Below, one piece after another: positions 1,657 to 63,506 of a stretch of 64,000 bases of DNA. Source of the DNA: Sacculina carcini (taxonomy: Eukaryota; Arthropoda; Thecostraca; Sacculinidae); NCBI GenBank assembly GCA_916048095.2, contig OU696583.1, positions 5,533,322 to 5,597,321 on the forward strand. The letters run 5' to 3'. Under the pieces are notes generated by a model. That model made no database searches. It was not told where the DNA came from and saw nothing but the letters and a program-made list of their open reading frames with translations. The stretch's first letter is position 1, and each line of letters starts with the position of its first letter. Position numbers and translations under genes: made by a program.

Positions 1657-2459
1657 AGCTATTTCGGCCTTTTCAGTGATTTGTTTTTTGTGGTTTTTAT
1701 GGATAGGCGGTTTGATTTTGCTTCGGAATAGTGTAGTTTAGTGTAGATTGTTGTAGTTGCTTCGGGAAAGTGTCATGGAATTGATGAATTGACAATGACT
1801 TCAGCAGTGGCGGTGGTACTGACCCTTGGGCATCAGTGGCAAAGTGGAAGACAGAGGTTGTGTTCGGCGGCGTGGCAAGAGGGTGTGCAGGGGGACGGCA
1901 GTGGAGCATGGTGCCGGCAAGGAGGCAGTCGGGGAGCTGCGCCGAGGTTGCTCGTCGTCCCGCCTGCATTGGTGATGGCTACGTCGCAGAACTGGTGAAA
2001 CAGTCGGTGGAAGCTGCTGGTGCTCAAGGAGGTAGGCAAGGAGCTGCTGAAGTCGCAGAAGGCGTCGTGGCCCGGAAGGCAAGACGGCTTGTCGAAGGTG
2101 GATCACGGCCGGCTGCGACAGGGTGCTGAAGAGCACAGGTGACGGCGGGAGCACGGTGGGTGCTGGGGCCAAGGTGTTGTGCCCTGTCGCGGCGGCCGGT
2201 GATGAAGAAGACGGCAGGTTGCGGCGGAGCACTGAAGAGCACGGGCGAGGCGGGAGCGCGGGGGACGCTGGGGCCTGACGTATTGGCTTCGCCGCAACCA
2301 AGGTGTGTTTCTGGTGGAGCCGTCGAGCTGGATGGGCGGGTCGGAGCTGATTGTGTTTGGTTGTTTCTTTGTATATCTCCGTGATTGTGCTCGCTTTTTA
2401 TTTTTTGTTGCTGTGTTGGCGTTTTTTCATATGTTTGTTTCTTAAGAAACAGGGGGAGG

Positions 2460-3137: not shown

Positions 3138-3706
3138 TGTAGTGTGAAGTGGAGATGCTTGCGCATTAAGGCATTTGTATCAGCTGACTGTTTGCGGTGC
3201 AGTGTGTTGAGGCGTGGCTTATAGCCTGCGCGTGCGGGTAGCCTGCGTGTGCGTGTGTGCGAGCGTGCATGTATGCTTGTGTGTGAACTTGCAGGCGTTG
3301 ATGACGTATTGGCGTATTGTTTTCTGATTGGTTGATTATTGGATGAATGTACAAACGATCGCCTGCATCGGGCGATTCTCAACGCGTGAACTGGAGAGTG
3401 AATGTTGGGGAGTGTTTGTGAAGCGTGCGGCGGTGTTGCGTTGTGTTGAAATGGGATTTACGGCGGTCGCGGTGGTTTATTGAGTGGTTCGTTCACTCAC
3501 GGGTTATTGTTACCCGGTGGTTTATTGAGTCGTTTGTTCACTCACGGGTTACTGTTATCTTTTGTTATTATCTAAGTATTTATATTCGTTCAGTCATTCC
3601 GAGTTTATTCGAGACTGTAATTACACGTTTCCTAATTTCTGGTTGTCTACCGAGACATGACGGAGAACGAAGCAACAATGACGGTTGCGGGGAATGCGGA
3701 ACTACA
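3138..3706 (+). repeat. 5' LTR of element A
   Basis: 569 bp, TGTAGTG...ACTACA. The last 50 bp hold two in-frame ATGs (3657 and 3678) that open the gag frame, so the LTR is partly protein coding. Confidence 0.92.
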
Positions 3707-4439
3707 AGCTATTTCGGCCGCAAGTAATGTGGCTTTCGACCTGAGGCTGGTGCCGGAGTATGACGGCAAAAAGGACCCCACAGAATGGCTCAGCAAAGTT
3801 CGGAAAATGTGTCGACTCCGAGGCGTGCGCGATGTGGCCCAAGTTGTTGGGATGAGAGTTACAGGTGATGCATATGCTGTCGTGGACTGCCTCCCCGATG
3901 TGGAACAGCTGGACCTTGAAAAAGTGGAGCAAGCTCTTCAGACCGCGTTTGGCATGGATACTTTCGGAGCGTACGACGCTTTTGTGGGGCGAAGATTGAG
4001 CGAAGGTGAGTGTGTCGATGTGTTGCTGTCCAACCTGCGCAGACTGGGAGCCAGGTGCAATATAACCGACCCAGTCTCAATAAAATGTGCTTTCGTCTCA
4101 GGGATCCCACAGACGGTGCGACATGTCCTCAGGGCGAACGCCAAACTCGACGCTATGACGCTGACCGAAGTCGTGGACAGGACAAGGGTGATTTTGTCAG
4201 AAGCGACCCACACCGTTAACACTGGACTGGCTGCTCGTTCGACAACGCGTGATTACGACCAGCAGATAAAACCCTTCAAGTGTTTCTTGTGTAACCAAGC
4301 CGGGCATTCCGCGTGTTATTGCTCTCGCCGAAAAAATGGCCCTGGAAAAGGGAGAACTGGGCCCACGTGTTTCAAGTGTGGTGAAATCGGGCATATCTGT
4401 TCACGCTGTCCGGAAAACGGCCAAGGAGGGGAGACGTAG
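3657..4439 (+). CDS. gag: Gag-like protein of element A
   Basis: A 260-residue structural protein. The start codon lies inside the 5' LTR, and the frame reads straight through the LTR end and the primer-site candidate before the conserved part (VPEYDGKKDPTEWL...). The N-terminal two thirds resemble the alpha-helical capsid region of Ty3-like Gag. The C-terminus has two perfect CCHC zinc knuckles (CFLCNQAGHSACYC and CFKCGEIGHICSRC), expected to bind RNA. It precedes pol, which lies in a different frame, so pol expression presumably uses frameshifting or another bypass known for the family. A related Gag is in element D at about 24215-24570. Confidence 0.85.
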   Translation: MTENEATMTVAGNAELQAISAASNVAFDLRLVPEYDGKKDPTEWLSKVRKMCRLRGVRDVAQVVGMRVTGDAYAVVDCLPDVEQLDLEKVEQALQTAFGMDTFGAYDAFVGRRLSEGECVDVLLSNLRRLGARCNITDPVSIKCAFVSGIPQTVRHVLRANAKLDAMTLTEVVDRTRVILSEATHTVNTGLAARSTTRDYDQQIKPFKCFLCNQAGHSACYCSRRKNGPGKGRTGPTCFKCGEIGHICSRCPENGQGGET

Positions 4440-4474: not shown

Positions 4475-7400
4475 ATGGTCACCACTCGTGTGTTAGTCAA
4501 CGACGTTCAGTGCCTTGCGTTAGTTGACACTGGATGTACTAGGAGTATAATATCGGAGTCGTTGTGCAGAGGGCTGGCGGAATTTCATGGTGAGTCGTTG
4601 TTGACTATTAGCGGAGCTCAGATGATATGTCAGGGTAGTTGGCCAGCGCAGATCGCGGTGGACGGAGGCAAGGCATTCGAGCTCAGCGTGCTGGTGGTGA
4701 AGCACCGGCCAGCCGGTTTTGATTTCATTCTCGGACTTGACGGTATTGTGGCAATGGGTGGCATGATGTTGGACTCGAGGCGGAAACTGACGTGGGGAGT
4801 AGAAGATGCACTTGCTCAGCGGGAACTGTGTGCTGCGGCAGCAGCGAATGGGAAAGGTGTGGGTGGTGGATGTGAGCTTGAGGGCAAAGACTTTGTGGCA
4901 TATTTCGATGCAAATAAAAACTCGTGGAGAGTGAAGTGGAAGTGGTCGCAACGTCCGAGTGTGCTGACGAACCGGACGGCTGAATATGCGATTGCTCCAC
5001 ATGCCCGCGATGAGTACCGGTCAGAGCTACAATCTTGGATTGACGCCGGATGGCTCGTTGAATACGATGAACGCGCTCATGGGCCAGTAAGAGGACTCAT
5101 CCCACTCATGGCAGTCAGCCAAAAGAATAAATCCAAAGTCAGGCCGGTGATGGACTTTCGCCAATTAAATCAATTCGTGGAAATACATACGGCGGATGCT
5201 GACGTCTGCCATCACAAACTCAGAGAGTGGAGGAGGCGGGGCGACCGTATAGCCTTGTTGGATCTGACGCGCGCCTATCTCCAGGTTGAAGTCGAGCCTG
5301 CACTCTGGTGTTACCAAACAGTAATAATATCTAACAAGCGATATTGTCTGACTCGGTTGGGGTTCGGGCTAAGTGCGGCTCCTATCATAATGAAAGAGAT
5401 CGTCAACTTCGTGTGTAAGCAAGATCCAAATGTCGACAGAGCAGCTTCATCGTACATTGACGACATTCTTGTCGATGAGTCTGTGTTGAGCGCAGATGAA
5501 GTGAGCAAGCATATCTCCAGATATGGGCTGACCTGTAAAACCGCATTGCGGGCCGACCCCTCATGTCGTGTACTGGGTCTGAGCGTTCGGCGACAGCAGA
5601 ACGGATTGGCGTGGAGCAGGGATAATCCTATACCACCAATTAATGGGCCAATGACTCGCAGGTCGGTGTTTTCGTTGTGCGGCCGTCTGGTTGCTCATCT
5701 ACCGGTGGCTGGATGGTTAAGACCTGCTGCTTCCTGGATGAAGCGGTGTGTGAATTCTGTGACTCAAGGATGGGATGATGTCGTTGATGACCGGTCTGTG
5801 GAGAACAAAATTTCAAATGTCATTAACAGACTCAAGAATGAAGATCCAGCGCGGGGAGTATGGCGGGTGACCGGAGAAGAGGTAACTGTGTGGACTGATG
5901 CCAGCGCGATTGCTCTCGGAGTGGTGTTGGAGACTAAGGACTCGGGAGTAATCGAGGACGCATGCTGGCTTCGTCGAGATGAAGTCACTCATATCAACAT
6001 GGCCGAGCTGGACGCTGCCATCAGAGGTATCAACATGGCCGTTTCGTGGGGTATGAAGGTGATAGACCTCCGCACGGATTCTGCAACTGTTCACCATTGG
6101 ATTGGTGATGCACTGAGCGGTCGTACCAGGCTCCGGACAAAAGCGCATGGCGAAATGCTGATACGACGGAGAGTGTGTCTCATCAAACAGATGGTGGATG
6201 AACTCGGATTACGAGTGAAGGTGCGGCTGGTTCGATCCGCCGAAAATTTGGCAGATGCTCTCACGCGTGTGCCAACCAGTTGGCTTGTCAGCGAATCAAC
6301 AGCTGTAGGCGCGGCAGCTGCGGCTCCAGCAGTCCGTGGCTCAGTCGCCGAGGATATTGTAAACATTCATGAGCGAGCAGGGCATCCAGGAATACGTCGA
6401 ACATTATTTTTTGCCAAACGTGACCTCGCTAGACCTGTGAAGCGATCGGATGTACGCGAGGTGGTTCGTCGTTGTGATGTATGCAACGCTATCGATCCGG
6501 CACCGGTCAAATGGCGACACGGCGCGCTGAGCGTTGCTGATATCTGGAGTCGCCTGGCCATTGACGTTACTCATTACGACAATCAGTCGTACCTGACTGT
6601 CGTTGACTGTGGCCCTTCGCGGTTTAGCTTGTGGAGACAACTGCGTGCGGCCGACAGTTATCAGGTCATACAGCACTTGGAGAGGATATTTTTTGAGAGA
6701 GGTGCACCAGCTGAACTACTTTGCGACAACGATACAGTTTTCAGAAGTCGGTCGTTTGCGGCGCTTGCAGCACAGTGGAGCATCAAGCTTCGTTTCAGAG
6801 CGGCGTATGCTGCAAGTGGGAATGCGATTGTTGAGCGCAATCATAGGACCGTGAAAGTCATTGCTGCTAGAAAGGGTTGCAGCATCACTGAGGCTGTTCA
6901 TTTATATAACGTCACGCCTCGCGACGGAGAGACTGGAGACAGTGCACCAGCCAATTGTGTCTACAACTATAGAGTACGAGACTACGCGAGACCTCGGGTT
7001 AACCAGCCAAGAGAAGGAGAGATTTCCGGTAGTGGGCGGTCTAGATTCACGACTGTTGACGCAGTATGGGTTCGTCAGCGTGGGACCAGATGCACCGAGC
7101 GGTCGGCACAAGGAGTGGTAAGTGGTGTTGTGTCTGAGCAGGTGGTCGAGGTTGACGGTGTGCCGCGTCATGTCCGAGATCTTCGACGCAGGAACGAGCA
7201 TGGCGTGGAAGCCGAGCCACCCGACGATATGTCATCAACCAACGACTCTCCGCTGTGGGTCGGTGGTCCCGTGTCCCACTCCACTTCCAATGCAGATGTG
7301 GCTGGACGAGCTTCATCGTCAGTACATGAGCGAGTCGACGCTGTTGGAGTTCATGATGATGCAGCACGTCCAGAAGTTGATGTTGATAGACGGGAACCGA

Positions 7401-7498
7401 CGACCGTGCCAGCCGAAGGCGTTCAGAGAGGGGCGCGGGTACGGCGACCACCTCCCCGGTGTTTATGTTGTGATCTTGGAGATCAGGGTGGGGTGTAG
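4475..7498 (+). CDS. pol: Pol polyprotein of element A (PR-RT-RNase H-IN)
   Basis: A 1007-codon open frame. In order: an aspartic protease with LVDTGCTRSII near residue 16; reverse transcriptase with VRPVMDFRQLN, FGLSAAPI and the catalytic SYIDDIL near residue 330; RNase H with VWTDASAIALG and a closing LADALTRVP; integrase with an H-x3-H/C-x2-C zinc finger (HERAGHPG ... CDVC) and a D,D,E core (AIDVTH, CDNDTVF, GNAIVERNHR). The 160-residue tail is divergent and acidic. It overlaps the start of the 3' LTR. The frame looks open throughout. The start shown is the first ATG; the true start is likely upstream, by fusion to Gag. Confidence 0.88.
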   Translation: MVTTRVLVNDVQCLALVDTGCTRSIISESLCRGLAEFHGESLLTISGAQMICQGSWPAQIAVDGGKAFELSVLVVKHRPAGFDFILGLDGIVAMGGMMLDSRRKLTWGVEDALAQRELCAAAAANGKGVGGGCELEGKDFVAYFDANKNSWRVKWKWSQRPSVLTNRTAEYAIAPHARDEYRSELQSWIDAGWLVEYDERAHGPVRGLIPLMAVSQKNKSKVRPVMDFRQLNQFVEIHTADADVCHHKLREWRRRGDRIALLDLTRAYLQVEVEPALWCYQTVIISNKRYCLTRLGFGLSAAPIIMKEIVNFVCKQDPNVDRAASSYIDDILVDESVLSADEVSKHISRYGLTCKTALRADPSCRVLGLSVRRQQNGLAWSRDNPIPPINGPMTRRSVFSLCGRLVAHLPVAGWLRPAASWMKRCVNSVTQGWDDVVDDRSVENKISNVINRLKNEDPARGVWRVTGEEVTVWTDASAIALGVVLETKDSGVIEDACWLRRDEVTHINMAELDAAIRGINMAVSWGMKVIDLRTDSATVHHWIGDALSGRTRLRTKAHGEMLIRRRVCLIKQMVDELGLRVKVRLVRSAENLADALTRVPTSWLVSESTAVGAAAAAPAVRGSVAEDIVNIHERAGHPGIRRTLFFAKRDLARPVKRSDVREVVRRCDVCNAIDPAPVKWRHGALSVADIWSRLAIDVTHYDNQSYLTVVDCGPSRFSLWRQLRAADSYQVIQHLERIFFERGAPAELLCDNDTVFRSRSFAALAAQWSIKLRFRAAYAASGNAIVERNHRTVKVIAARKGCSITEAVHLYNVTPRDGETGDSAPANCVYNYRVRDYARPRVNQPREGEISGSGRSRFTTVDAVWVRQRGTRCTERSAQGVVSGVVSEQVVEVDGVPRHVRDLRRRNEHGVEAEPPDDMSSTNDSPLWVGGPVSHSTSNADVAGRASSSVHERVDAVGVHDDAARPEVDVDRREPTTVPAEGVQRGARVRRPPPRCLCCDLGDQGGV

Positions 7499-8062
7499 TG
7501 TGAAGTGGAGATGCTTGCGCATTAAGGCATTTGTATCAGCTGACTGTTTGCGGTGCAGTGTGTTGAGGCGTGGCTTATAGCCTGCGCGTGCGGGTAGCCT
7601 GCGTGTGCGTGTGTGCGAGCGTGCATGTATGCTTGTGTGTGAACTTGCAGGCGTTGATGACGTATTGGCGTATTGTTTTCTTATTGGTTGATTATTGGAT
7701 GAATGTACAAACGATCGCCTGCATCGGGCGATTCTCAACGCGTGAACTGGAGAGTGAATGTTGGGGAGTGTTTGTGAAGCGTGCGGCGGTGTTGCGTTGT
7801 GTTGAAATGGGATTTACGGTGGTCGCGGTGGTTTATTGAGTGGTTCGTTCACTCACGGGTTATTGTTACCCGGTGGTTTATTGAGTCGTTTGTTCACTCA
7901 CGGGTTACTGTTATCTTTTGTTATTATCTAAGTATTTATATTCGTTCAGTCATTCCGAGTTTATTCGAGACTGTAATTACACGTTTCCTAATTTCTGGTT
8001 GTCTACCGAGACATGACGGAGAACGAAGCAACAATGACGGTTGCGGGGAATGCGGAACTACA
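7494..8062 (+). repeat. 3' LTR of element A
   Basis: 569 bp, nearly identical to 3138-3706. It is preceded by the purine-rich GATCAGGGTGGGG and followed by the CAGAT duplication. Confidence 0.92.
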
Positions 8063-10984: not shown

Positions 10985-13810
10985 TCACAGAGAGGCGAAA
11001 GGAGAGAGAGAGTGAGAGACGGGATCAAATGAAATGTCAAAAAGGTACAGGCGAAGCAGACGGCGGAATGACCGAAATGAAGAAGCGCGGGTGATATGAG
11101 AGGGAAGAGAATTATACAAGCGAGGGGCGTAAAAGAAGAACGATTTAGAGGACCAGGAAGATTCATTAGATGCACGAGGACAAGCGAGAGGAAGAGGGCG
11201 ACGAGAGGAGTGTGAGTCAGTGGGAGACAAAAGATTAGCAAGATAAGAAGGTTGGTGAGGATCATGCAGAAGCTTGTAAATGAGACAGCAAAGGCGAAAA
11301 TGAATTCGTGGGATGATAGGAAGCCAGTGGAGTTGAAAAAGCAGGTGAGACGTGTGGCGAGAAAAGGTAGGATGAAAGACAAATCGACAAGATTGGTTGA
11401 TCACACGCTGAAGGATTAAGAGATGAGAACGAGGAGCACTGAAGTAAAGCGAGTTGCAGTAGACTAACCTGGGGAAAATGAGAGTATGAACAAGAGTGAT
11501 GGCGGAATTTTTATCAAGACCGGGGACGTATAGGGTAGAGAGAGCGCAGAATATGACGACAAGTGCGGGCGACAGAAACGATATTGTCAAAGCAGGAGAG
11601 CGAAAAGACAAAGATAGAGCCGAGATTGCGAACAGCAGTTGATATAGGAAATGGGAGAAGAGGAGTTGAAATACGAGGTGGATGGAGGACGATGAACTCA
11701 GACTTAGAAGTATTCAAGTACAGCTGCCGAGAAGCGGCCCATGAGAAAATTTCAGAAAGTATATCAGAGAGAAAGGAGGGAGTATCAGGAGTGACAGGAA
11801 TGAGGAATTGGATGTCATCTGCATAGATTTTGAAAGTAATGGAATGTTTTCGAAGAACAGGGCAAAGACATATAAAGATTAAATAATAGTGGGCCAAGGA
11901 CGGAACCTTGGGGAACACTAGATCGAAGAGGGAAGTGAGCAGAGGTAGAGGAATTGACGTCAACTGAGTAAGTACGATCAGTGAGGTAAGATTCCAGAAG
12001 AGAAAGGGCGGAAGAAGATAGACCCAAACAGGAAAGATCACGAATAATAATAGGGTGACTAACAAGATCAAAAGCCGAGGACAGATCAAGTAGTACCAAG
12101 AGGACAGATTGACGGTAGGAGAAGTGTGAAAGGGTATCATTACACAAGGAAATAAGTACAGATTCAGTAGAGTGAGCAGAGCGGAAACCAGATTGACACG
12201 GGTCAAGGAATTTAGAGATGTGAGGAGAGAGTTGCAATGAAATAGCGGATTCAAGGAGTTTGGAGGGAAGACTGAGGAGAGATATAGGACGGTAATTGGT
12301 GAGAGCAGCGGGATCAAGAGTAGGTTTTTTATAATGGGTCGAACAATAGCATGTTTGTCTGGCAAGAAAACACCATGCAGAAAAGAAGAGTTGATAAGGT
12401 GGAGAAGGTAAGGCACAAGAGAAGGAAGAGACACAGAAATAGCTCGAAAATTAATTGAGTCCGAGGGAGAGTGGGACATCTTGATTGAAGACAAAAGGTG
12501 GAGAATGTCAGGGAGAGAGACAAAAGAAAATGAAGGAAAATTTTCGGAAGTGCGAGTATGACAGAGGGAGGATCGGAAAGGAGGGATATTCTTTAGAACA
12601 GAATCAATTTTCGCAGAGAAAAAAGACGCAAACTGAGAGGCTGTAAGATCACACGAGGTAGAAGGAGATCGAAGACCGCAGAGAGAATTGAGAGAGGACC
12701 AAAGAGATTTAGAAGAACGGGAAAGGGAAGCAAGTTTGGATTTGTAAAAATCTTGTTTGGCAATATGTAATGCAGAAACGTACGACGACCGGGCAGAGCA
12801 AAGTAGTTCCCAATCCTGTGAAGATCGAGTTCTACTCCAGACAGTTTCGGCACGCCGCTGAGTATGTTTAAGAGAATGAAGATGAGAGGAGAACCAAGGG
12901 GGAGAAGAAGTGAGAGGTTTAGACCGAGTGACCAAAGGAAACATAAAATCATTTATACCTGAGAGAACATCTGAAATGGCTGGAAAAATATCGCGGAGAG
13001 GGAGCCAGTAGAAGCGGTCGAGAGGAAGTAAGGAAGATAAAAGTGAAGTAAATTTAGCAGGATCAAACTGTTTGTAATTGCGATATGAGAATGGTGGAGG
13101 ACAAGCAGCACGTGAGAAAGGAAGTGAATAAAACAAGAGGCAATGGTCAGAAATATTTGGATCAGAAGGCAATGTGAAAACATCAGGAGGAGGACGGTCT
13201 GAGGAGATAGCGGGAGCGGGAGAGAGAAATAGGTCAAGAGAGTGACCAGATATGTGAGTAGGAGAAGAATTCGAAATTGATAGACCGAGTGCCTGGAGAA
13301 GAGAAATGAAGTTCTGACAGTAAGGATTATTAGATGGGGAGTCAACCCAGAAATTGAAATCCCCTACGACGATGAAGTCACTGGAGAAACGTGAGGAGAC
13401 AGCATCGATGAGGTAAGGAAATTCGTTAAGGAAAAGAGGAGATGAGCCAGGGTGATTATGACGGTAGACTATCAAAAAACAAAATTTAGAGTAAGAAGGA
13501 ACAGCAAGGGAGAGTGCAAGGAATTCAAATGAGGAGCAATCCGGAATCAGGTCATTTACAGGAGAAACAGAGAAAGACTTGGAAAATATACAGCCAACTC
13601 CACCGCCAGAAGATTTAGAATGTGAGCGAGATTTGTGCAAGAAATTGTAAGAGGAGGGAATATTTGCAGCGAAAGAAGAAACATCAGAATCGAGAAGCCA
13701 GGTTTCAGTTAAACACAAAATAGAGAGATTGAATGATGAGATTAAATTACAGATCGGAAGAGTTTTATTTCTGCAGGAACGAATGTTAAGAAGCCCAATG
13801 GAAAGATGAG
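10985..13810 (-). pseudogene. LINE ORF2: endonuclease and reverse transcriptase, frameshifted
   Basis: Begins with an N-terminal endonuclease (LTETWLLDSD, VGDFNFWVDSP, SDHCLLF) typical of APE-type LINEs. A linker leads into the RT (LDPCQSGFRSAHSTES, LLDLSSAFDLV, SVPQGSVLGPLLFNLY, IYADDIQFL) and a C-terminal domain ending near SNESSWSSKSFFFYAPRLYNSLP. The YADD catalytic site is present. The reading frame changes near 12335 (after HAIVRPIIK), again near 11830 before the YADD block, and again near 11560, so at least three frameshifts are needed to read it through. It is related to the LINEs at 15172-25463 and 56760-58978 but is a distinct subfamily. Confidence 0.82.
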
Positions 13811-15454: not shown

Positions 15455-15660
15455 TGTGAGGTGGCATCATTGTAAATAATAATTGAGGCGTCATACGCTG
15501 CGCGTTAGCGACAAGGTGACAAGAGATTTTGAGTAGTGTATTACTTTTGAGTGTTTTGCTATGGTGAGAGCGTTCTAATATTGTTATTGGTGTAAGCCTG
15601 TGTTGAATAATATATATATTCGAAAATCGCAATTTCCGTGTTGTTTCATAAAACAATACA
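15455..15660 (+). repeat. 5' LTR of the Ty3/Gypsy element
   Basis: 206 bp, TGTGAGGTGG...AATACA. Its last A forms the first base of the gag ATG. Confidence 0.92.
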
Positions 15661-16736
15661 TGGCGCAGCCGACATCTACTCTTGAAGAGCAGATACAAAA
15701 ACTGACATTAGCAGTCAGTCAGTTGGCAGAGCACAGTGCTCGCCGAGAAGCTGAATATGAGCGAATTCTGTCAGCTGAACGTAATCAGAATATATCGGGC
15801 GAATCCAGAGCAATAAAGCTTCCCAACAACAATGCTCCAATTTTGCATTTTTCATGCTCTTTGAAAGAGTTTGATACGTGGAGATACAAATTCACTGGGC
15901 ACGTTTCTCTCTGTGACATTGATAAACTACCTATAAAAGAACAACAAGCAGTGCTTCATGCTTCAATTGATGAGGACTGGTCACGTTCTCTGCGTTATAG
16001 CCTCGAAATCAGGGAGGATGTTCCACTGACCGAATGTATTTCGAAAATGGAGTCATTCTTGCGCTCTCAGCGGAACATAATTCTCGACCGTCGTGATTTT
16101 TATCTGCGTAGTCAACAAGCCGGTGAGAATTTTGATGATTTGTTGTGCTCTGTCAAAGAAATCATGTTGTTCTGCGATTTCTGCACATCATGCAGCAGCA
16201 ACAGACTGCGCGACAAAATTCTAATGGCTATATCTGACGACATTGCGTTACATCAAATGCTCCAAGAAAAGGATTTGACTCTCGAAAAGTCTGTCGCTAT
16301 TTGTCGATCATCAGAAACCGCTGCGGTCAATTCGTCGGCGATAAAGCAGCCGGAAAAACATATTTTTGTGTCAAATGTTCGCGGCAAATCATCTCACGCC
16401 ACTGAGAAGTCACTGTGTTCAAGATGCGGTCGCTTGGTGGAAGCACAAACCCACAAATGTCCTGCAGCCGGCAAAACGTGCACGGTATGTGGCAAACCGA
16501 ACCACTTTGCAGCAGTGTGTCGCAGTTCCAGTAGACACAACAGATCGGACAAAAATAAATCTTCGCATTCACCAAAACGTCGAGGGACAAATCTCAGGCG
16601 TATCACGATTTGTGATATCAGCCACGGCAAAAAGAAGCGACGAAAAGTGCCACCCGTAAAATTCGTGTCAGACTATCGAAAGGCGCATCGACAGAAGTCT
16701 CGTGGGTCGCCGACACCGGCGCCGAGGTATCCGTGA
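15660..16736 (+). CDS. gag: Gag of the Ty3/Gypsy element
   Basis: Starts MAQPTSTLEEQIQKL. The ATG is made from the last base of the LTR plus the TG of the primer site TGGCGCAGCC. A coiled-coil-like N-terminus is followed by a capsid-like helical region (FDTWRYKFTGHVSLCD, LRSQQAGENFDDLL) typical of Ty3/Gypsy Gag. The C-terminal cysteine/histidine motifs (CSRCGRLVEAQTHKC and CTVCGKPNHFAAVC) make a knuckle pair. A basic tail overlaps the protease region, which is read in another frame. Confidence 0.8.
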   Translation: MAQPTSTLEEQIQKLTLAVSQLAEHSARREAEYERILSAERNQNISGESRAIKLPNNNAPILHFSCSLKEFDTWRYKFTGHVSLCDIDKLPIKEQQAVLHASIDEDWSRSLRYSLEIREDVPLTECISKMESFLRSQRNIILDRRDFYLRSQQAGENFDDLLCSVKEIMLFCDFCTSCSSNRLRDKILMAISDDIALHQMLQEKDLTLEKSVAICRSSETAAVNSSAIKQPEKHIFVSNVRGKSSHATEKSLCSRCGRLVEAQTHKCPAAGKTCTVCGKPNHFAAVCRSSSRHNRSDKNKSSHSPKRRGTNLRRITICDISHGKKKRRKVPPVKFVSDYRKAHRQKSRGSPTPAPRYP

Positions 16737-19966: not shown

Positions 19967-20172
19967 TGTGAGGTGGCATCATTGTAAATAATAATTGAGG
20001 CGTCATACGCTGCGCGTTAGCGACAAGGTGACAAGAGATTTTGAGTAGTGTGGTACTTAAGAGTGTTTTGCTATGGTGAGAGCGTTCTAATATTGTTATT
20101 GGTGTAAGCCTTTGTTGAATAATATATATATTCGATAATTGCAATTTCCGTGTTGTTTCATAAAACAATACA
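19967..20172 (+). repeat. 3' LTR of the Ty3/Gypsy element
   Basis: 206-bp partner of 15455-15660, followed by the GGCAC duplication. Confidence 0.92.
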
Positions 20173-20603: not shown

Positions 20604-20976
20604 TGTATTTGAATGTAAGCACGAAAAATAAAAAAGAGCAAGAAAGCACAATTCCACACGATCACACCGCAACACAATGCACTAAATGCTACTCTCTCCA
20701 GCGAACAACACTAAACCACCGCACACACACCACACTCTCACTTCACCAGTAACGCACTGCCCAACATGCACGAGCGACTGTTGACTCCGGGCGAATACCA
20801 CCCGCGCATGCATGCACTCATCGCTCGCGCTTGTGTGACGCAGCTACCTCCGCGCGAGTATACAACAACGTACACACAATCACACTCCCACGTACGCACA
20901 AAAATACATATGCACGCACACACTATTAAATATAGTACAAATATAATACAATGCAATATACAATAAACATAATACA
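20604..20976 (-). repeat. 3' LTR of element D
   Basis: About 373 bp. It matches 24594-24978 with some 14 scattered differences and a microsatellite length change. A partial third copy lies at 239-411. Confidence 0.85.
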
Positions 20977-20989
20977 TATCCCCCTGATT

Positions 20990-23131
20990 CTAAGAATCAC
21001 TATGTCGATTAGAATTATACACAACATAATCATTGAACCGCGCCGGACGCTGACTCTGTCGCTGTGGTCGCGCCTGCTGCTGACCGCTACTCGCCGGACC
21101 AGTCCCGGCAGTCCTCTCACCGTACACCATGACGGCAGGCTCGCCGTCGTCCGCCACGTCACCGCTCGCTTCGTCCAATGAGTTCGTGCCGCCACCGTTC
21201 TCCGTCTCCGCCCGTGGTCTGACATCACCCACGTGCCTGTTGATGCCTTCGACGGCCACAACAAGGTCTGACACGACACTTGTGACGGTACCCTTGCGAC
21301 CGACAGCATCACACCGATCTCCGCGCTGCCTCACCCAGACAGGATCGCCGACCTCATAATCGCAGCCACGAACAGATGTGCTGCGCCGTCGCGGGAGTTC
21401 ATCACGCATTCGCACCCTGTATCGATACACACCATCAACAGGTTTGCGACCGGCGTCATCGCTTGGCGTCAAATTGTGCAGCATCACAGCCTCTCTCACA
21501 CTGCACTGTTTCCTCGCAACAATGGTCTTTACTGTCCGATGCGACCTCTCCGCTATGCCGTTTCCTTCTGGGCGAAAGGCACACCGATATCGAATGTTCA
21601 CACCCCAACGTTCCATCGCCCGCACAAAAGCCTGTCCACGAAAAGATGTGTCGTTGTCCAGAATTATATCATTTGGGGGTCCACGCTCACTGAAAATGTC
21701 ATCGAAAATGTCCGCCACTTCATCGCTGCTGCGAGTGCGAACCTTGCGCCAGAGAGAAAACCTCGAAGGACCACAATCGATGACAGACACATACAACAAA
21801 TCACGCACATGCAAAAAATCTGCTGCCAGTCGGTGCCAGTTTTGATTCACGCTCAGATTCCCGTGTCTCCATTTCACTGCCGTCGGACAAATCGAATTGC
21901 AGATGTCACACGACCTCACAACCTCTGCGACTTCCCTCTTGCTGACATAAAGCTTTTTCCTCCGGCAAAAGTACCGCGTTCGGTGGATGCCCGGATGTCC
22001 GGCGTCGTGGTGAATCTGCCTGATGCGAGAACGCACGTCAGTCGGTTCAGCACCTGCGGCACACACTGCTTTGTCCTGTTTCAACCAGTGACCGGGCACA
22101 CGAGTCAGGCAATCTGCTTTATTCCTCTCAGACGCCACCTTCATTACTTCAACAGTCAAGTTGTACTCGTCCAACAATCCACCAATGATCTCTAGTCGGC
22201 GCCTGATCAACAACTCACTACAAGCAGTTGTCCTGACACGTTCTTTTGCCGTTAGAAGTCCTCTGAGCCATAAATGCACCATGGATGAATCTGTGAAAAG
22301 CCGAATTTTTCTAAATTTGAGCTTGATCGCCAGGCCAAGCCCCTTTATCACGGCTTCTAGCTCACTGAGGTTTATGTGGTGGCTGTCCCTTCTCAACCAG
22401 CAAGCATCTTCCACTGTCTCGCCATTTACCTCAACCAACGCACCAATGGCAATGTTGCTGGCGTCCACCCATACATTCGCCAAATCATCATCGATCTTCC
22501 ACACGCCTCTCACGGGATCGCTATGCTGCAGTTTCGACATCACCTCGTTCACATGACTATTGATTGCTGAGTCACAAATCGGTTCGTCCCAGCTGTTTGT
22601 CGCTTCGGATGCAAGTCGCTTGATGTACGAAGCGGCAACTCGCAACCAGCCACCGACAGGATAATGCGACACCAAAGTAATGCACAAAGAAAACACGACT
22701 CGTCTCGTGAGCTGTTGCGGACACTCACCCACAGCATTGTCCCTCTTGCACATCAACTTGCCAGACTCTGATGAAAACACGTGTAAGCCGAGCACACGTG
22801 TTCCGTCAGAGAGCTTTTGAATCTCCTTCGATTCAAGACCGTACTTGGCAAAGTGCTCCTTCACTGTTTCGGGTGACACAATATTTCCCTCAATGAGGAC
22901 ATCGTCAACATATGCCGATGTACCGCGTCTTATCTGGTCGTTTTGTGCCATCACCGAGTCAACCACCGTATGCATGATCATGGGCGCCTCACTCAACCCG
23001 AATCCAAGCCTGTTCAAGCAGTACAGCACACCATTGAACTTCACCGTCTGGAAAGGCCACAATGAACTGTCCACTGATATCTGCAGGTAGGCTGTCTTGA
23101 GGTCCATGATAAACACATTGTCTCCCTTCAT
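20990..23131 (-). CDS. pol: RT-RNase H-integrase part of element D
   Basis: A 713-codon open stretch. RT has IMDLKTAYLQI, FGLSEAPMIM and the catalytic AYVDDVLIEG; RNase H has VWVDASNIAIGALV and DCLTRVPGHW; the integrase zinc finger is HHDAGHPGIHRTRYF ... CDICNSI; the core has LAADFLHV, LDNDTSF and GNGIAERSHRT. It is strongly similar in domain order and motifs to pol of element A, so A and D are sister families. Confidence 0.85.
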   Translation of the reverse strand: MKGDNVFIMDLKTAYLQISVDSSLWPFQTVKFNGVLYCLNRLGFGLSEAPMIMHTVVDSVMAQNDQIRRGTSAYVDDVLIEGNIVSPETVKEHFAKYGLESKEIQKLSDGTRVLGLHVFSSESGKLMCKRDNAVGECPQQLTRRVVFSLCITLVSHYPVGGWLRVAASYIKRLASEATNSWDEPICDSAINSHVNEVMSKLQHSDPVRGVWKIDDDLANVWVDASNIAIGALVEVNGETVEDACWLRRDSHHINLSELEAVIKGLGLAIKLKFRKIRLFTDSSMVHLWLRGLLTAKERVRTTACSELLIRRRLEIIGGLLDEYNLTVEVMKVASERNKADCLTRVPGHWLKQDKAVCAAGAEPTDVRSRIRQIHHDAGHPGIHRTRYFCRRKKLYVSKREVAEVVRSCDICNSICPTAVKWRHGNLSVNQNWHRLAADFLHVRDLLYVSVIDCGPSRFSLWRKVRTRSSDEVADIFDDIFSERGPPNDIILDNDTSFRGQAFVRAMERWGVNIRYRCAFRPEGNGIAERSHRTVKTIVARKQCSVREAVMLHNLTPSDDAGRKPVDGVYRYRVRMRDELPRRRSTSVRGCDYEVGDPVWVRQRGDRCDAVGRKGTVTSVVSDLVVAVEGINRHVGDVRPRAETENGGGTNSLDEASGDVADDGEPAVMVYGERTAGTGPASSGQQQARPQRQSQRPARFNDYVVYNSNRHSDS

Positions 23132-24593: not shown

Positions 24594-24978
24594 TGTATTT
24601 GAATGTAAGCATGAAAAATAAAAAAGAACAAGAAAGCACAATTCCACACGATCACACCGCAACACAATGCACTAAATACTACTCTCTTCACCGAACAACA
24701 CTCTAAACCACCGCACACACACCACACTCTCACTTCACCAGTAACGCACTGCCCAACATGCACGAGCGACCGTTGAATCCGGGCGGATACCACCCGCGCA
24801 TGCATGCACTCATCGCTCGCGCTTGTGTGACGCAGCTACCTCCGCGCGAGTATACAACAACGTACACAAAATCACACTCCCACGTACGCACACAAATACA
24901 TATGCACGCACACACTATTATATATAGTACAAATACAATACAATGCAATATACAATAAACATAATATATATATATACA
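24594..24978 (-). repeat. 5' LTR of element D
   Basis: About 385 bp. It includes an expanded (TA)n stretch at its outer end and is followed on the minus strand by the 12-nt primer-site candidate and then the gag ATG at about 24568-24570. Confidence 0.82.
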
Positions 24979-34122: not shown

Positions 34123-34769
34123 TGTGTGTTCACCATCCTTGGTCCATTTTTTATCAGCTAATACTCGGCCACCACTTAGCGTACCCGCTAACAATATATA
34201 CCATCACGTTGGAAATTTTCTTGTCTACACTTAACACTAAATTTCAAATTTTAAAAATAAAATCAACAAAAGTTATTGCGGTGAAAAAACAAAATGAACC
34301 CTAAAAAATGCGAAAATTTTGGTCGATTTTCTGAAGACTACTTTCCTCAAACCAGCAATGGTACAACTATACAAATTATACCACTGTGTATAAAATTTTA
34401 TCTTCTACTCAACGCACTATAATTTATACCCAAAAATTGAATATAAAACATGTGAAATGGAAAACAATTCAATCTACATTAAAAAATTTATTTAAACTCC
34501 ACGCGTCAAATTTTCTATACTTTTTTCTCTATTTCGCAAAAAATAATTATCACACATCTAAATAAATAATACCATCATGCTGGAAATTTTCTTTTCTACA
34601 ACACAGTATAATTTTTAATTTTACAAAGTGTATTAAAAAAAAGTTACGGCGGTGTGAAGTGTAAATGACAAAGTCAAAAAGGCAAAATTAGCACACAAAA
34701 ACGTGAGTATTTTGGTCAATATTCCGCTATCTATTCCTCATAAACCAGCAATGGTACAGCTATAAAAAT

Positions 34770-35795
34770 TATACTATTGTGTAGATAATTTTGTGTTCTA
34801 CAAGGAAAGGTATAATTTATACCCGCAAATGATACAAAAACGTGTAAAATTGGCAAAATTCGCAAATACATCCAAAATTACACTTGAACACCGGGTGATT
34901 AAAATTAATTCATTTTTCTACCTATTTCTCAGGACCTATTTGTCACACATTACAATAAAGTATACCATCGTGCTAGAAATTTTGTTTTCTACAATACGGT
35001 ATAATTTTTAATTTTCCAAAGTGTATCTGAAGGAAGTTACGGGGGTGTAAAGTCAAACGGACATATTGCCAATTTGACAGCTATTATGCGCACTTGCGAT
35101 TACACAGGAATATACTACTGTGTAGAGAATTTTGTGTTCTACAATATAAGCTATAATTTATACCCACAAATGATACAAAAAACGTGTAAAATTGGCAAAA
35201 TTCTCAATTACATCCAAAATTACACTTGAACACCGGGCGACTAAAATATATTCATTTTTCTACTATTTCTCAGTAAATATTTGTTACACATAAAAATAAA
35301 TTATACCATCGTGCTATAAATCTTGTTTTATACAAGACGGTATAAATTTTAATTTTCCAAAGTGTATCTGAAGGAAGTTACGGCGGTGTAAAGTCAAAAG
35401 GACATATTGCCAATTTGACAGCTATTATGCGCACTTGCGATTACACAGGAATATACTACTGTGTAGATAATTTTGTGTTCTACAAGATAAACTATAATTT
35501 ATACCCACAAATGACACAAAAAACGTGTAAATTTGGCAAAATTCTCAAATACATCCAAAATTGCACTTGAACACCGTGCGACTGAAATTAATTTATTTTT
35601 CTACTATTTCTCAGTAAATATTTGTAACACATAAAAATAAATTATACCATCGTGCTAGAAATCTTGTTTTCTACTATACGGTATAATTTGTAATTTTCCA
35701 AAGTGTATCTGAAGGAAGTTACGGCGGTGTAAAGTCAAAAGCACATATTACCAATTTGACAGCTATTATGCGCACTTGCGATTACACAGGAATAT
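34770..35795 (+). repeat. 341-bp tandem repeat array, unit 1
   Basis: The landmark TTGTGTTCTA occurs at 34791, 35132 and 35473, exactly 341 bp apart, within units sharing GGAAGTTACGGCGGTGTAAAG and GACAGCTATTATGCGCAC. Three units. Homologous to 42060-43560. No coding capacity. Confidence 0.88.
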
Positions 35796-35939
35796 ACACC
35801 GATTAAATTTCACTGAAGCCCAATCACAATTAAGAATGCATCATATTAGCTCCAAGCATGGATGGTGTGGTTTTATTGAGTACAGTTTAATTAATGCTAC
35901 ACTATACTGAATAGAATGACTTTATTGTCCTCAATATTT

Positions 35940-38190
35940 ACACATGAATTGTTCCGCCCGACGGGCGGGTAAAATACTACTGGGAACAAAGTTAACTACT
36001 GAATTTTACTGTATAATTTAATTGGTTTAATTTCAAGTTGCATAAGCTTAAGTTGCATAAGCATATGGGTTGTAATATCATGCAATGCCAACTATATGAA
36101 TATGCTGTTTTAGCGGACGCATAAATCTGGAATTATAGAGATGGCAGAAAGTTTCATTGTTTTGATAGTGTTACACTTCTGAATTACTACACACGAAGGA
36201 CGGGTGTGAATTTGAGCAGTGTTGAGGGAAAAACATCGTCAATAATTAAAACAAGAATTTACAAATTTCACTTTTTCTGTTGGTCGTTTTTCATCGATTT
36301 TCTTTTTGTTTGTTTCGTGTTTGAGTTCTGAATTATTCCGCACGACGGGCAGCTTTAAATATGAGGCGGGTTGTGGAAAAACATGTTTTCTAAATTGAAA
36401 CATAAATTTCAGTATGGTAATTGAAATTGTATGGTATAATGTATTGTATTGTATTGTATGGTATAAAATTTCAGGTGGTATTTTCTGCCTTACAGTATGG
36501 TTCCGATACTATATTGGCGGGTTGAGAGATAAGCATTTGTGGGCCGCGTGTTTGGGACCCCTGGGGTAGATAATCTCAGTCTTCTGATTACAAATTATGA
36601 TCGCATCAGTATATTTTGTGATCACAAACTAATAAGTTAAATCACCTCAGACTAGGCTGAGTGCGGTCAAGATTGGATGGTTGGGTTGGGTTGGGTAGGT
36701 TTGACTCAGGTTATATTGGGTTTTAATGATAGCGGAAAATATATAAATTTTAGCAATAAATATTATAGCGGTAAAAGTAAAATAGTACTTAAGCAAATGA
36801 TATTGGGGAATGATGTTAAGTAATAAATATAGTTTGGAAACATTCTGATGAAAAGATTTCATCATCTTTCATTGTTTGTTTCGTGTTTGTGTTCTGAATT
36901 ATACCACACGACGGGCAGATTTATATATCAGGCGGGTTGAGGGATAATATTTGTCAAAATAAGAACAAAAATATTCACATTTAGACTTTTCTATTGGTTA
37001 AGATATTTATAGGTTACATTTTTTGGTTTTCAATTTGTATTAAATATATTTTATGGATTTCATATGAATATTATTGTATGAATTGTTCCGCACGACGGGC
37101 GGGTTTAAAAAAGTGTTTTTTAGCTCATTTTTTTCAAATGGTTCATTTAAAAAAAGGTAATTTTTTAAAAATAAACATGCTCCGCGGTCAGCAACTATAT
37201 ACAATAGAACGTTCAATTTACCCTGTAGAATTAATCCATACACAAAACCAATGGATTTGACTTCAAGATCCAGAACGGATCGTGTTCGAGTTCTTAATTA
37301 TTCAGCACGACGGGCGGGTTTAAAAATGACTCAGGCGGACTGAGGGGAAATATTTTGTCGAAATAAAAATAATTAAACTTATAATTTTCAATAGATGAAT
37401 ATTTTTATGAGTGTACCCTATTTCATTTTTATTTTTACATATTTTTTTATGAATTGAATATGAATTTCATGTTATGAATTGCTCCGCACAACGGGCGGGT
37501 TTTAATGCTATATATATATACATAAAGAAGAAATTATCTGTCTGTCTGTGTATGTATGCTTGAATATGAGGTGACATAATTGCGCTGGTTCATGGTTCGC
37601 TGGTTCAATGATCAGGGGCTTCAAACGCAAACGAAGCGATGGCTCATTTTTATGAAATAAAAATGTCCCGCGGGCAGCAATAAAACGTTCAATTTCACCG
37701 TGTAGAATGAATTCATATACAAAACTAAAGGATTTGACTTCAAGAACCAGAACGGATGGTGTTCGAGTTCTGAATTATTCCGCACGTCGGCCGGGTTTAA
37801 ATATGAGGCGGGCTGAGTGAAAATATTTTGTCAAAATAAAATTAAAAGTAATGAAATTTAGACTTTTTAATTGATTAAGTTTTTTATGAGTTTGCCTTAT
37901 TTGTTTTTATTTTGCAATATTTTTATGAATTGCTCCGCACAACGGGCGGGTTTTAATGCTATATATACATAAAGAAGAAATTATCTGTCTGTCTGTGTAT
38001 GTATGCTTGAATATGAGGTGACATAATTGCGCTGGTTCATGGTTCGCTGGTTCAATGATCAGGGGCTTCAAACGCAAACGAAGCGATGGCTCATTTTTAT
38101 GAAATAAAAATGTCCCGCGGGCAGCAATAAAACGTTCAATTTCACCGTGTAGAATGAATTCATATACAAAACTAATGGATTTGACTTCAA
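35940..38190 (+). repeat. Array of CCGCACGACGGGCGG hairpin modules, unit 1
   Basis: Near-repeats of GAATT.TTCCGCACGACGGGCGGGTTTAAA occur at about 35950, 36340, 36900, 37085, 37305, 37480, 37775 and 37930, each able to form a short CCGC/GCGG stem. The last two belong to monomers of about 445 bp starting TATATACATAAAGAAG (37510 and 37957). The second monomer is completed at 41111-41338, beyond the insertion. Confidence 0.8.
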
Positions 38191-38211
38191 CAACAACAAC
38201 AACAATAACAG

Positions 38212-38772
38212 ACAGTTTTGTCGTGATTAAGAAGGAGGTATCTGGAGGCAGCCCATGACGAAATATTTGAAAGAAGTTTAGATATCAAAGTATAATTATG
38301 TAAAGATAGGGGAAAGTAAATTTGTACATCGTCAGCATAGACGTGAAAGGAAATAGGGTATTCTCTGAGGACAGAACAAAGGGACGAGACGTAGAGGTTG
38401 AGAAGGAGTGGTCCCAGGAGAGAACCCTGTGGGACGCCAGAAGTCAACGGAACATTGGCAGACATCGGGGAATTACAGCGGACAGAAAAGGAACGTTTAT
38501 GAAGGTAGGAAGAGACAAGAGAAAGAGCTGAGGAAGAAAGGCCAATATGGGCGAGATCTTCACAAAGAATGGAATGATTGACGAGATCAAAGGCAGATGA
38601 AAAATCTAATGATATTAGCAGAACAGATTTGCCGAAGGAAAAGTTAGAAGAAATGTCATTAGTGAGGCGAATAAGGAGAGTTTCAGTTGAATGATTTGAT
38701 ATAGAGCCTGATTGACAAGGATCAAGGACCGTAGTAATAATCGGACGAAGTTGTTCAAGGATAGCGTGTTCA
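38212..38772 (-). pseudogene. CR1-like LINE RT fragment with an attached (TTG)n tail
   Basis: Nearly identical to 57430-57995 of the LINE at 56760-58978: LDPCQSG, LISLDFSSAFDLVNHS, SGVPQGSLLGPLL and YADDVQIYFPLS. On its 3' side the coding sequence stops abruptly at HDKTV and is followed by TGTTATTGTTGTTGTTG (38191-38211). The usual LINE 3' UTR is missing. The segment 38773-38925 upstream is a short tandem array of AAAACGTCT-like units and unknown sequence. Confidence 0.8.
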
Positions 38773-41416: not shown

Positions 41417-42059
41417 TCCCACCCTCCTTGGTTCATTTTCTATGAGCTGCTACTCGGCCATCATTTGGCGTACCCGCTAAAAATTTATACCATCATGTTC
41501 AAAAAATTTTTGTCTACACTGTAGGTTAAATTTTTAATATTAAAAATGAAACCAAAAGAAGTTAGAGCGGTGAAAAGACAAAATGAACCCTGAAAAATGC
41601 GAAAATTTGGGTCAATTTTCTGAAGACTACTCTTTCTAAACCAACAAAGGTAAAACTATAAAAATTATACCACTGTGTAGAAAATTTTCTGTTCTACTCA
41701 ACGAACTAATAATTTATACCCAAAAATTAAATATAAAACATGTAAATCGGAAAACAATTCAATCTACATTCAAAACTTTATTTAATTTCCACGCGTCCGA
41801 TTTTCTATACTTTTTTCTCTATTTCTCAAAAATTAATTATCACACATTTAAATAAATAATACCATCATGCTGGGAATTTCGTTTTCTACAACACGGTATA
41901 ATTTTGTATTTTCCAAAGTATATTAAAAAAAAGTTACGGCGGTGTGAAGTGTAAATGACAAAGTCAAAAAGGCAAAATTAGCACACAAAAACGTGAATAT
42001 TTTAGTCAATATTTCGCTATCTATTCCTCATAAACGAGCAGTGGTACAGCTATAACAAT

Positions 42060-43565
42060 TATACTATTGTGTAGATAATTTTGTGTTCTACAGGAAAAGT
42101 TATAATTTATACCCACAAATGATACAAAAAACGTGTAAAATTGGCAAAATTCTCAAATACATCCAAAATTACACTTGAACACCGGGTGACTAAAATTAAT
42201 TCATTTTTCTACTATTTCTCAGTAACTATTAGTTAAACATAAGAATAAATTATACCATCGTGCTAGAAATATTGTTTTATACAATACGGTATAATTTGTA
42301 ATTTTCCAAAGTGTATCTGAAGGAAGTTACGGCGGTGTAAAGTCCAAAGCACATATTACCAATTTGACAGCTATTATGCGCACTTGCGATTACACATGAA
42401 TATACACTGATTTAATTTCACTGAAGTCCAATCACAATTTACGCACTTGCGATTACACAGGAATATACTAATCTGTAGAGAATTTTGTGTTCTACAAGAT
42501 AAGCTATAATTTATACCCACAAATGATACAAAATACGTGTAAAATTGGCAAAATTCTCAAATACATCCAAAATTACACTTGAACACCGGGCGAGTAAAAT
42601 TAATTCTTTTTTCTACCATTTCTCAGTAACTATTTGCTACACATCAAAATAAATTATACCATCGTGCTAGAAATCTTGTTTTCTACAATACGGTATAATT
42701 TTTAATTTTCCAAAGTGTATCTGAAGGAAGTTACGGCGGTGTAAAGTCAAAAGGACATATTGCCAATTTGACAGCTATTATGCGCACTTGCGATTACACA
42801 GGAATATACTACTGTGTAGATAATTTTGTGTTCTACAAGATAAACTATAATTTATACCCACAAATGACACAAAAAACGTGTAAAATTGGCAAAATTCTCA
42901 AATACATCCAAAATTGCACTTGAACACCGTGCGACTGAAATTAATTTATTTTTCTACTATTTCTCAGTAAATATTTGTAACACATAAAAATAAATTATAC
43001 CATCGTGCTAGAAATCTTGTTTTCTACTATACGGTATAATTTGTAATTTTCCAAAGTGTATCTGAAGGAAGTTACGGCGGTGTAAAGTCCAAAGCACATA
43101 TTACCAATTTGACAGCTATTATACGCACTTGCGATTACACAGGAATATACACCGATTAATTTCACTGAAGTCCAATCACAATTTACGCACTTGGGATTAC
43201 ACAGGAATATAGTACTGTGTAGATATTTTTGTGTTCTACAAGATAAACTATAATTTATACCCACAAATGACACAAAAAACGTGTAAAATTGGCAAAATTC
43301 TCAAATACATCCAAAATTGCACTTGAACACCGTGCGACTGAAATTAATTTATTTTTCTACTATTTCTCAGTAACTATTTGCTACACATCAAAATAAATTA
43401 TACCATCGTTCTAGAAATCTTTTCTTCTACAATACGGTATAATTTGTAATTTTCCAAAGGGTATCTGAAGGAAGTTACGGCGGTGTAAAGTCAAAAGGAC
43501 ATATTGCCAATTTGACAGCTATTATGCGCACTTGCGATTACACAGGAATATACACCGATTAAATT
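42060..43565 (+). repeat. 341/404-bp tandem repeat array, unit 2
   Basis: The TTGTGTTCTA landmark occurs at 42081, 42485, 42826 and 43229. Spacing alternates 404, 341, 403 because two units contain an extra segment of about 62 bp (AATTTCACTGAAGTCCAATC...). Three-quarters of the array is nearly identical to 34770-35795. Confidence 0.88.
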
Positions 43566-43679
43566 TCACTGAAGCCCAATCACAATTAAGAATGCATCAT
43601 ATTATCTCCAAGCATGGATGGTGTGGTTTTATTGCGTACAGTTTAATTAATGCTACACTCTACTGAATATAAAGGCTTT

Positions 43680-46600: not shown

Positions 46601-47139
46601 TGCCTTATTTATCTTTAATTTGCAATAATTTTATGAATTTTTCCGCACAACGGGCGGGTTTTAATGCGGTTTTAATGCTATATGTATATATATATACATA
46701 AAGAAGAAATTATCTGTCTGTCTGTGTATGTATGCTTGAATATGAGGTGACATAATTGCGCTGGTTCATGGTTCGCTGGTTAAATGATCAGGGGCTTCAA
46801 ACGCAAACGAAGCGATGGCTCATTTTTATGAAATAAAAATGTCCCGCGGGCAGCAATAAAACGTTCAATTTCACCGTGTAGAATGAGTTCATATACAAAA
46901 CTAATGGATTTGACTTCAAGAACCAGAACGGATGGTGTTCGAGTTCTGAATTATTCCTCACGTCGGGCGGGTTTAAATATGAGGCGGGCTGAGTGAAAAT
47001 ATTTTGTCAAAATAAAATTAAAAATAATGAAATTTAGACTTTTTAATTGATTAAGGTTTTCATGAGTTTGCCTTATTTATTTTTAATTTGCAATATTTTT
47101 ATGAATTGTTCCGCACAACGGGCGGGTTATAATGCTAGT
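43680..47139 (+). repeat. Array of CCGCACGACGGGCGG hairpin modules, unit 2
   Basis: About fourteen further copies of the hairpin motif, at about 43690, 44075, 44255, 44650, 44830, 45410, 45592, 45795, 46015, 46197, 46490, 46642, 46957 and 47110. The last 920 bp comprise two tandem monomers of about 450 bp. Segments 45000-46020 are close copies of 36480-37330 in unit 1. Confidence 0.8.
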
Positions 47140-54513: not shown

Positions 54514-54791
54514 TGTAATATATTAGTGCTGGATATTGTGTATGAATGATTATTTTGTATGAGCGTGAGTGAAGGTGCTATATGTGTATATGAGCGTGCG
54601 TTTGAATGGTGGATTTTCCGGTTTGCTGACTGCGCGTGCCACGTGGTGGCGTGATGTTTCGGGAGCCATGTGAGCGTCGTGGAGTGTGTATCGGTGTGCG
54701 GTGTCTTGTGGGCGCGCGTGAGGCTGCAATGCCCCCGCGCACCCGTCTTCAAATATATATTTTGTTTTTGTTCTTTATATCTGCTTTTACG
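54514..54791 (+). repeat. 5' LTR of element C
   Basis: 278 bp. Contains a GC-rich inverted repeat at about 54709-54745 just before ATATATATTTTG, at the position equivalent to the LTR hairpin of element B. Confidence 0.85.
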
Positions 54792-55485
54792 AGCTAACCG
54801 GCCTGTAACAAGCTATTTCGGCTATTTTATTTCGGTTTGAATGAAGTTTTGGTGAAATTTGAATTCGTTGAAAATTTGGTTCCGGCTTCAGCAGCAGTGG
54901 TGATGCCTCCAGCACCAGGGGAGGACAGCAGCAGTGGAGGCTCTCAGTGGCGTGTCAGAAGCGTGTTGTACGGACGGCGGTGAGGCATGGTGCCGGCTGG
55001 AGGCAGCGGGGAAGCTGTGGCGGATCATGCTCACTCCGTCCGTATTGGAGCTGGACACGTCGCTGAGATGGCGGTGGAAGCTGCTGGTGCTGGAGGGCTG
55101 CTGGAGTGAGAGCTACTGAAGCCGGGGATCTGGAAGAAAGGAAGCCGAGACGACGTGGTCTGTGTGGACGGCGGTCTCGACTAGCTTGGGCAGGGTGCTG
55201 AAGAGCACTGGGGTCGAGGTGTTGTGCTCTGTCGCGGCAGCCATTGATGTAGAAGACGGCAGGCTGCGGCGGAGCACTGAAGAGCACGGGCGGAAGCGGG
55301 AGCGCGGTGGACGCTGGGGCTAGCCGTGTTGTGCTTCGCCGCAGTCATGGTGTGCGCCTGCTGGAGGTCGTGGAGTCGGCAATCTTTGTCCTGTTTATTC
55401 CTGGTGTAATTTTATTCCGCGTTTATTTTTGGGCTTGTATTTTCAGCTAAACTTTCCGTTTTGTTTCTTGAGAAACAGAGGGAGA

Positions 55486-63502: not shown

Positions 63503-63506
63503 AGAG

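Follow-up and report, generated by a model that had tools for sequence, protein, structure and literature searches.

A 64,000-nt stretch of the Sacculina carcini genome (contig OU696583.1, positions 5,533,322 to 5,597,321; hereafter the window) holds LTR retrotransposons in which the left LTR is followed directly by 12 nt complementary to the 5′ end of a tRNA. We propose, with a probability of roughly 0.8, that these 12-mers serve Ty3/gypsy-type elements, and the non-autonomous elements that partner them, as primer-binding sites (PBSs), and that a 5′ tRNA fragment of about 12 nt, presumably released by a cut in the D arm, acts as the primer. Read directly from the DNA are an LTR-flush site in many families, its match to nt 1–12 of tRNA-Ile and, in family C, LTRs that end at either of two such sites.

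Putative primer sites of elements A to D

The 5′ LTR of element A (3138–3706, plus strand) has TG...CA ends and is repeated as the 3′ LTR at 7494–8062 (plus), with the target-site duplication (TSD) CAGAT on both flanks. Its Phe-type primer site, AGCTATTTCGGC, follows at 3707–3718 (plus). A gag ORF with a CCHC motif (3657–4439, plus; zf-CCHC at 19.6 bits, below the cut-off of 20.8) starts within the LTR, and its reading frame crosses the primer site. The pol ORF (4475–7498, plus) contains protease-like, RT, DUF7047, RNase H and integrase domains in sequence, which is the Ty3/gypsy order; RNase H, integrase and DUF7047 scored above their cut-offs, and protease, RT and CCHC below. Element B (5′ LTR 1287–1656 and 3′ LTR 2460–2829, both plus; TSD AATTG), which is without an ORF of at least 250 amino acids, carries the same 12-mer at 1657–1668 (plus).

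Element C is likewise without an ORF of at least 250 amino acids. Its LTRs are of a short form: the 5′ LTR (54514–54791, plus; TSD ATTAA) ends in ACG, in which the final G replaces A, and the 3′ LTR (55486–55766, plus) has the regular ACA, as part of TTTTACA, followed by ATTAA. Behind the left LTR lie an Ile-type site, AGCTAACCGGCC (54792–54803, plus), a spacer TGTAACA (54804–54810, plus) that is the LTR end in long-form copies, and a second, Phe-type site, AGCTATTTCGGC (54811–54822, plus), which is absent from the earlier note. Element D lies on the minus strand, with the 5′ LTR at 24594–24978, an Ile-type site at 24593–24582 and the 3′ LTR at 20604–20976. The outer end of its 5′ LTR is blurred by a TA run and its TSD is not clean, as ATATA fits only with one altered LTR base. 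The pol ORF of D (20990–23131, minus) gave RT, DUF7047, RNase H and integrase matches, of which DUF7047 and the integrase zinc domain were above cut-off and RT, RNase H and the integrase core below.

Exact 12-mers thus adjoin the left LTR in all four elements, as the earlier note had stated, and the borders that it took as proven in A, B and C are each bounded by an exact TSD. The Ty3/gypsy assignment rests on the pol order and zinc-knuckle gag of A, on the RT, RNase H and integrase of D, and on TG...CA LTRs with a short target duplication in A, B, C and further copies, D being unclean in this respect. The Ty1/copia domain order was not found; integrase comes after RNase H. Searches with A pol among viral contigs and with A gag among phages found no relatives.

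One-mismatch matches to the 12-mers at 33397 (minus), 48393 and 32413 were set aside, as their sequence context has no LTR border. Elsewhere in the window, two blocks of related repeats of the 300-nt class (34355–38255 and 41645–46984) are more than 90% alike in places, and the translations of two long ORFs (11514–13718, minus; 56768–58684, plus) resemble LINE reverse transcriptases.

An ordinary 3′-type site in the same host

LTR elements usually prime from the 3′ end of a tRNA, and the sites of A–D might be ordinary sites of this kind that were misread. This host does contain them. Element E, probably a Mag-type gypsy element and here the positive control, has its LTRs at 15455–15660 (5′, plus; TSD GGCAC) and 19967–20172 (3′), and its site TGGCGCAGCCGAC (15661–15673, plus), of the ordinary 3′-CCA type, is the exact complement of the 3′ end plus CCA of the host tRNA-Ser(TGA/CGA). 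ACA followed by TGGCGCAGCCGAC occurs in 285 genome copies, which besides E were counted only. The LTRs of A–D, by contrast, are followed by AGCT... with no TGG, and the tRNA positions matched are 1–12. When tRNAs of 17 anticodon types were folded, none matched the sites elsewhere at up to two mismatches; nt 1–12 of two Lys tRNAs fit the Ile-type site with two mismatches. A better 3′ CCA-type match, which the earlier note had named as grounds for rejecting its reading, is therefore not there, and we regard misread 3′-end priming as very improbable.

A further repeat pair was noted at 62541–63505 (minus), where 239-nt direct repeats lie 726 nt apart within a 4-bp AGAG duplication. The pair has the appearance of a small LTR element of the non-autonomous kind, and the sequence after its left LTR, TTGGTGACCCCGAC, is an ordinary 3′-type site.

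The matching tRNAs

The first 27 nucleotides of tRNA-Ile, GGCCGGTTAGCTCAGTTGGTTAGAGCG, gave 10 exact genome matches, and all eight loci examined fold as tRNA-Ile(AAT) with the 5′ start GGCCGGTTAGCT. The host genes therefore establish the Ile-type site of C and D as the exact reverse complement of tRNA-Ile nt 1–12, as had been claimed from the vertebrate sequence. The Phe-type site is the complement of what we take, from the human sequence, to be nt 1–12 of animal tRNA-Phe (GCCGAAATAGCT). On that footing both site versions match nt 1–12 of their tRNA, in agreement with the common register noted before.

Within the searched assembly, no tRNA-Phe gene was found by GCCGAAATAGCTCAG, by a two-ended pattern or by an anticodon-arm pattern with three mismatches allowed (0 matches each), so that the human sequence is the basis of the Phe match; the gene may sit in an assembly gap or outside the searched sequence. 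A tRNA family search, in which 63 of 15,013 candidates were scored, gave at least 51 matches and is no census. A human tRNA-Phe query matched only two fragments and no gene. These fragments, tRNA-Phe nt 38–72 in L080 and nt 38–67 in L081, are fused into LTR-element DNA and both begin exactly at nt 38, which puts tRNA-Phe near reverse transcription. Such starts would be consistent with reverse transcriptase having copied tRNA-Phe as far as the modified base 37, or with cleavage of the tRNA in its anticodon loop. In L080 an inverted copy of internal sequence stands alongside the tRNA-Phe piece.

Two tandem sites and two LTR ends in family C

Copies of family C read TTTTACA-AGCTAACCGGCC-TGTAACA-AGCTATTTCGGC, with the Ile-type and Phe-type sites 19 nt apart. 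The right LTR of nine short-form copies (window C, L100, L105, L109, L113, L131, L139, L151 and L157) ends in TTTTACA, flush with the start of the Ile-type site, and that of four long-form copies (L126/L127 and the apparent solo LTRs L090, L097 and L104) ends 19 bases further, in TGTAACA, flush with the start of the Phe-type site. The 5-bp TSDs are exact in 12 of the 13 copies, L139 agreeing at four of five bases; they are ATTAA, AATAT, AGAAA, CTAAT, GTAAC, GAATT, CATAC and CCATC for the short form and TTGTG, AAATG, CGGTA and GTAAT for the long form. The count of 9:4 leaves out L132, the LTR start of which lies beyond the sequence read at that locus, and L160, and is no usage ratio, because sampling by the exact Ile 12-mer misses short solo LTRs. 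Of the eight short copies besides window C, three (L105, L113 and L151) have changes in the unused Phe-type site. A similar tandem (Ile-type site, TGTTATA, Phe-type site) occurs in L145, which belongs to a different family. No tandem repeats were found in element C.

Minus-strand synthesis in LTR elements begins at the U5 end. Two LTR ends in family C, one per 12-mer, therefore mean that both sites function as primer sites. This tandem is the strongest evidence that we have, and it shows that the primer position sets the LTR end and that both sites are used. The start of minus-strand DNA from a short 5′ tRNA fragment, as suggested before, thereby gains support at the sequence level, in that the LTR ends of family C move with the site.

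Constancy of the 12-mers amid diverse flanks

Across the host assembly (264 Mb in 43 contigs), the Phe-type 15-mer ACAAGCTATTTCGGC, which is ACA plus AGCTATTTCGGC, has 1844 copies (924+920), and the Ile-type 15-mer ACAAGCTAACCGGCC, which is ACA plus AGCTAACCGGCC, has 368 (184+184). The reversed-pattern controls for both had no match in the genome, which excludes a chance origin of these counts. A set of 183 site rows (99 Phe-type rows, 72 Ile-type rows and earlier A-type loci; L030 and L092 are among the few that overlap) fell into 91 clusters, 63 Phe-type and 28 Ile-type, when grouped by positions +19 to +50 (32 bases); as the rows were picked by the exact 15-mer, the clusters demonstrate flank diversity and not site conservation. 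Ten other host tRNA 5′ 12-mers occur only at tRNA loci in the 282,762 bases searched, which are mostly loci picked by the Phe-type site or by A. L029 and L024 look like products of recombination at the primer site: in them, the left LTR end of one family meets downstream sequence of a second family precisely at the 12-mer.

Site conservation was read from loci picked by Gag similarity instead. A query with the Gag protein of A gave 152 genome matches, of which 20, at 54–71% identity to A, were examined. AGCTATTTCGGC is exact in 19 of these and one base short in L245, whereas the 12 bases before and after the site have a mean per-column agreement of 0.70 and 0.65 (19 loci). Since the Gag matches of this first set span the site codons, with the site mostly downstream of a gag ATG, protein conservation may add to the constancy seen there. 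A second set of nine loci, at 49–55% identity, has the site exact in eight; the ninth (L269) lies at the edge of the sequence read there, with only the last five bases visible. Here the site is upstream of the gag ATG in six of the eight exact loci, so coding does not explain it at those. Over both sets the Phe-type 12-mer is exact in 27 of 29 loci, against a per-column agreement of 70% and 65% in the flanks of the first set, and the decay at the pace of neighbouring sequence that would have told against a primer site is not seen. Among the Gag relatives of A, many have the site just past a plausible gag ATG in the LTR, and others just ahead of the ATG.

Four further C1 copies were examined because the exact 15-mer is absent from them. 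L262 has an exact site preceded by an altered LTR end. L259, L260 and L261, copies of the A family on one contig, share the same single base change in the site, as if the variant site had been passed on; a mismatched site can thus be inherited, and renewal is not strict.

These data bear on whether the 12-mer is a conserved cis signal (for packaging, as an integrase end or as the coding sequence of QAISA) that resembles tRNA by chance. The location of the site within gag in A and many relatives speaks for such a signal, and part of the conservation there, where the site is coding, may indeed be at the protein level. However, two site versions match two tRNAs in one register, the site stands ahead of the gag ATG in several families, and the LTR ends shift together with it, which makes a cis signal with fortuitous tRNA likeness most unlikely.

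A proposed priming mechanism

We suggest that nt 1–12 of tRNA-Ile(AAT) or tRNA-Phe pair with the site. The tRNA would be cut in the D arm after U12, and the 5′ fragment, a predicted 12-nt RNA GGCCGGUUAGCU or GCCGAAAUAGCU, would anneal with its 3′-OH at the LTR border and be extended by reverse transcriptase into U5 and R. Plus-strand DNA would then copy the fragment through tRNA nt 1, which could renew the 12-mer, and in the second strand transfer the copied 12-mer would pair. If the site is renewed from the primer in this way, it would stay exact across families while the flanks diverge. The mechanism would depend on an activity, supplied by the host or by the element, that cleaves tRNA 3′ of U12 and yields a 3′-OH. 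As for the primer terminus, the site of E is also flush with its LTR; LTR end and primer end would therefore coincide in this host, which would put the 3′ ends of the other primers at nt 12, not nt 10. The LTR border is that of integrated DNA, however, and a two-base trimming by integrase would allow a primer end at nt 10–11.

Run-off at tRNA nt 1 predicts excess variation at +13. Such an excess is visible (0.229 at +13 versus 0.033 at +19 to +50) and is not significant: only 9 of 22 clusters have +13/+14 above background (p = 0.11), a background that the clustering itself lowers.

Two other sources of the primer were weighed. Self-priming in the Tf1/Sushi mode, in which the site base-pairs with the 5′ end of the RNA that carries it, is documented for Ty3/gypsy elements in sections of PMC6317226 and PMC4600332. 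It calls for a complement of the PBS in the 5′ LTR, and none was found. Within the 1 kb upstream, complements of the site do not exceed 8 nt in elements A–D and 12 Ile-type loci, or 7 nt in 19 of 20 Phe-type clusters; the only 12-nt match, in L010, has the coordinates of the site in an adjoining inverted A copy. The existence of two tRNA-specific site versions also counts against self-priming, which we consider extremely unlikely. A local hairpin at the site was rejected as well, four local folds being no better than shuffles.

An uncut tRNA might instead anneal by its 5′ strand and prime from an internal 2′-OH, or from its CCA end across the LTR border. The body of the tRNA would then emerge exactly at that border, and the register would be explained with no cleavage enzyme. 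Internal 2′-OH priming occurs in retrons; we know of no case in LTR elements. The LTR end ACA cannot pair with CCA. We therefore hold priming by an intact tRNA to be unlikely and favour the cleaved 5′ fragment.

Comparison with known systems

Mag-type gypsy elements, to which E probably belongs, resemble A–D as LTR elements in the same host with a 5-bp TSD and an LTR-flush PBS, and differ in that E has an ordinary tRNA-Ser 3′ site; for Mag elements of Culex, part of PMC3286476 gives tRNA-Ser or tRNA-Leu primers and one tRNA-Arg. Also comparable are tRF-5a and tRF-3019 (HTLV-1), which, like the proposed primer, are tRNA fragments with a 3′-OH according to excerpts of PMC7681095 and PMC12192838; the same excerpts state that tRF-3019 can act as a retrovirus primer, and the former gives a length of 14–16 nt for tRF-5a. 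tRF-3019, unlike the sites here, involves a 3′ fragment at an ordinary PBS. RSV has no reverse transcriptase. A portion of a tRF review mentions, loosely, 5′ fragments as guide primers for RSV (PMC7681095). The literature covered, in part as excerpts and with most subscription papers outside its scope, describes no D-arm 5′ tRNA fragment as a primer, which is weak evidence of absence.

If the proposal is true, 5′ tRNA fragments would be linked to retroelement replication, and PBS searches keyed to TGG and tRNA 3′ ends would miss such elements; the sequence test can be applied by anyone to other genomes. According to sections of a plant survey (PMC6317226), LTR-element primers are of three types, namely a whole tRNA, a half tRNA cut in the anticodon stem, and self, and half-tRNA priming is confined in plants to Ty1/copia elements. 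Half-tRNA priming (Drosophila copia; plant Osser, Bryco, Gymco-II and Bianca; yeast Ty5) is like the mode proposed here in that the 3′-OH comes from a 5′ tRNA piece made by cutting, and this piece has its 3′ end paired to the PBS. Those tRNAs are cut in the anticodon stem or loop, as parts of PMC6317226 and PMC5371799 describe, the latter ascribing the internal cut for Ty5 to RNase P, whereas the complementarity here stops at nt 12, in the D arm, leaving no primer 3′ end in the anticodon arm. Unlike half-tRNA sites, it also extends to nt 1, and its users have the Ty3/gypsy domain order. We think it likely that a 12-nt, D-arm-cut 5′ tRNA fragment serves many LTR families of one genome as a fourth class of primer, with switching between tRNA-Phe and tRNA-Ile and, in some cases, tandem sites that give a single family two LTR lengths, in a superfamily other than that of half-tRNA priming.
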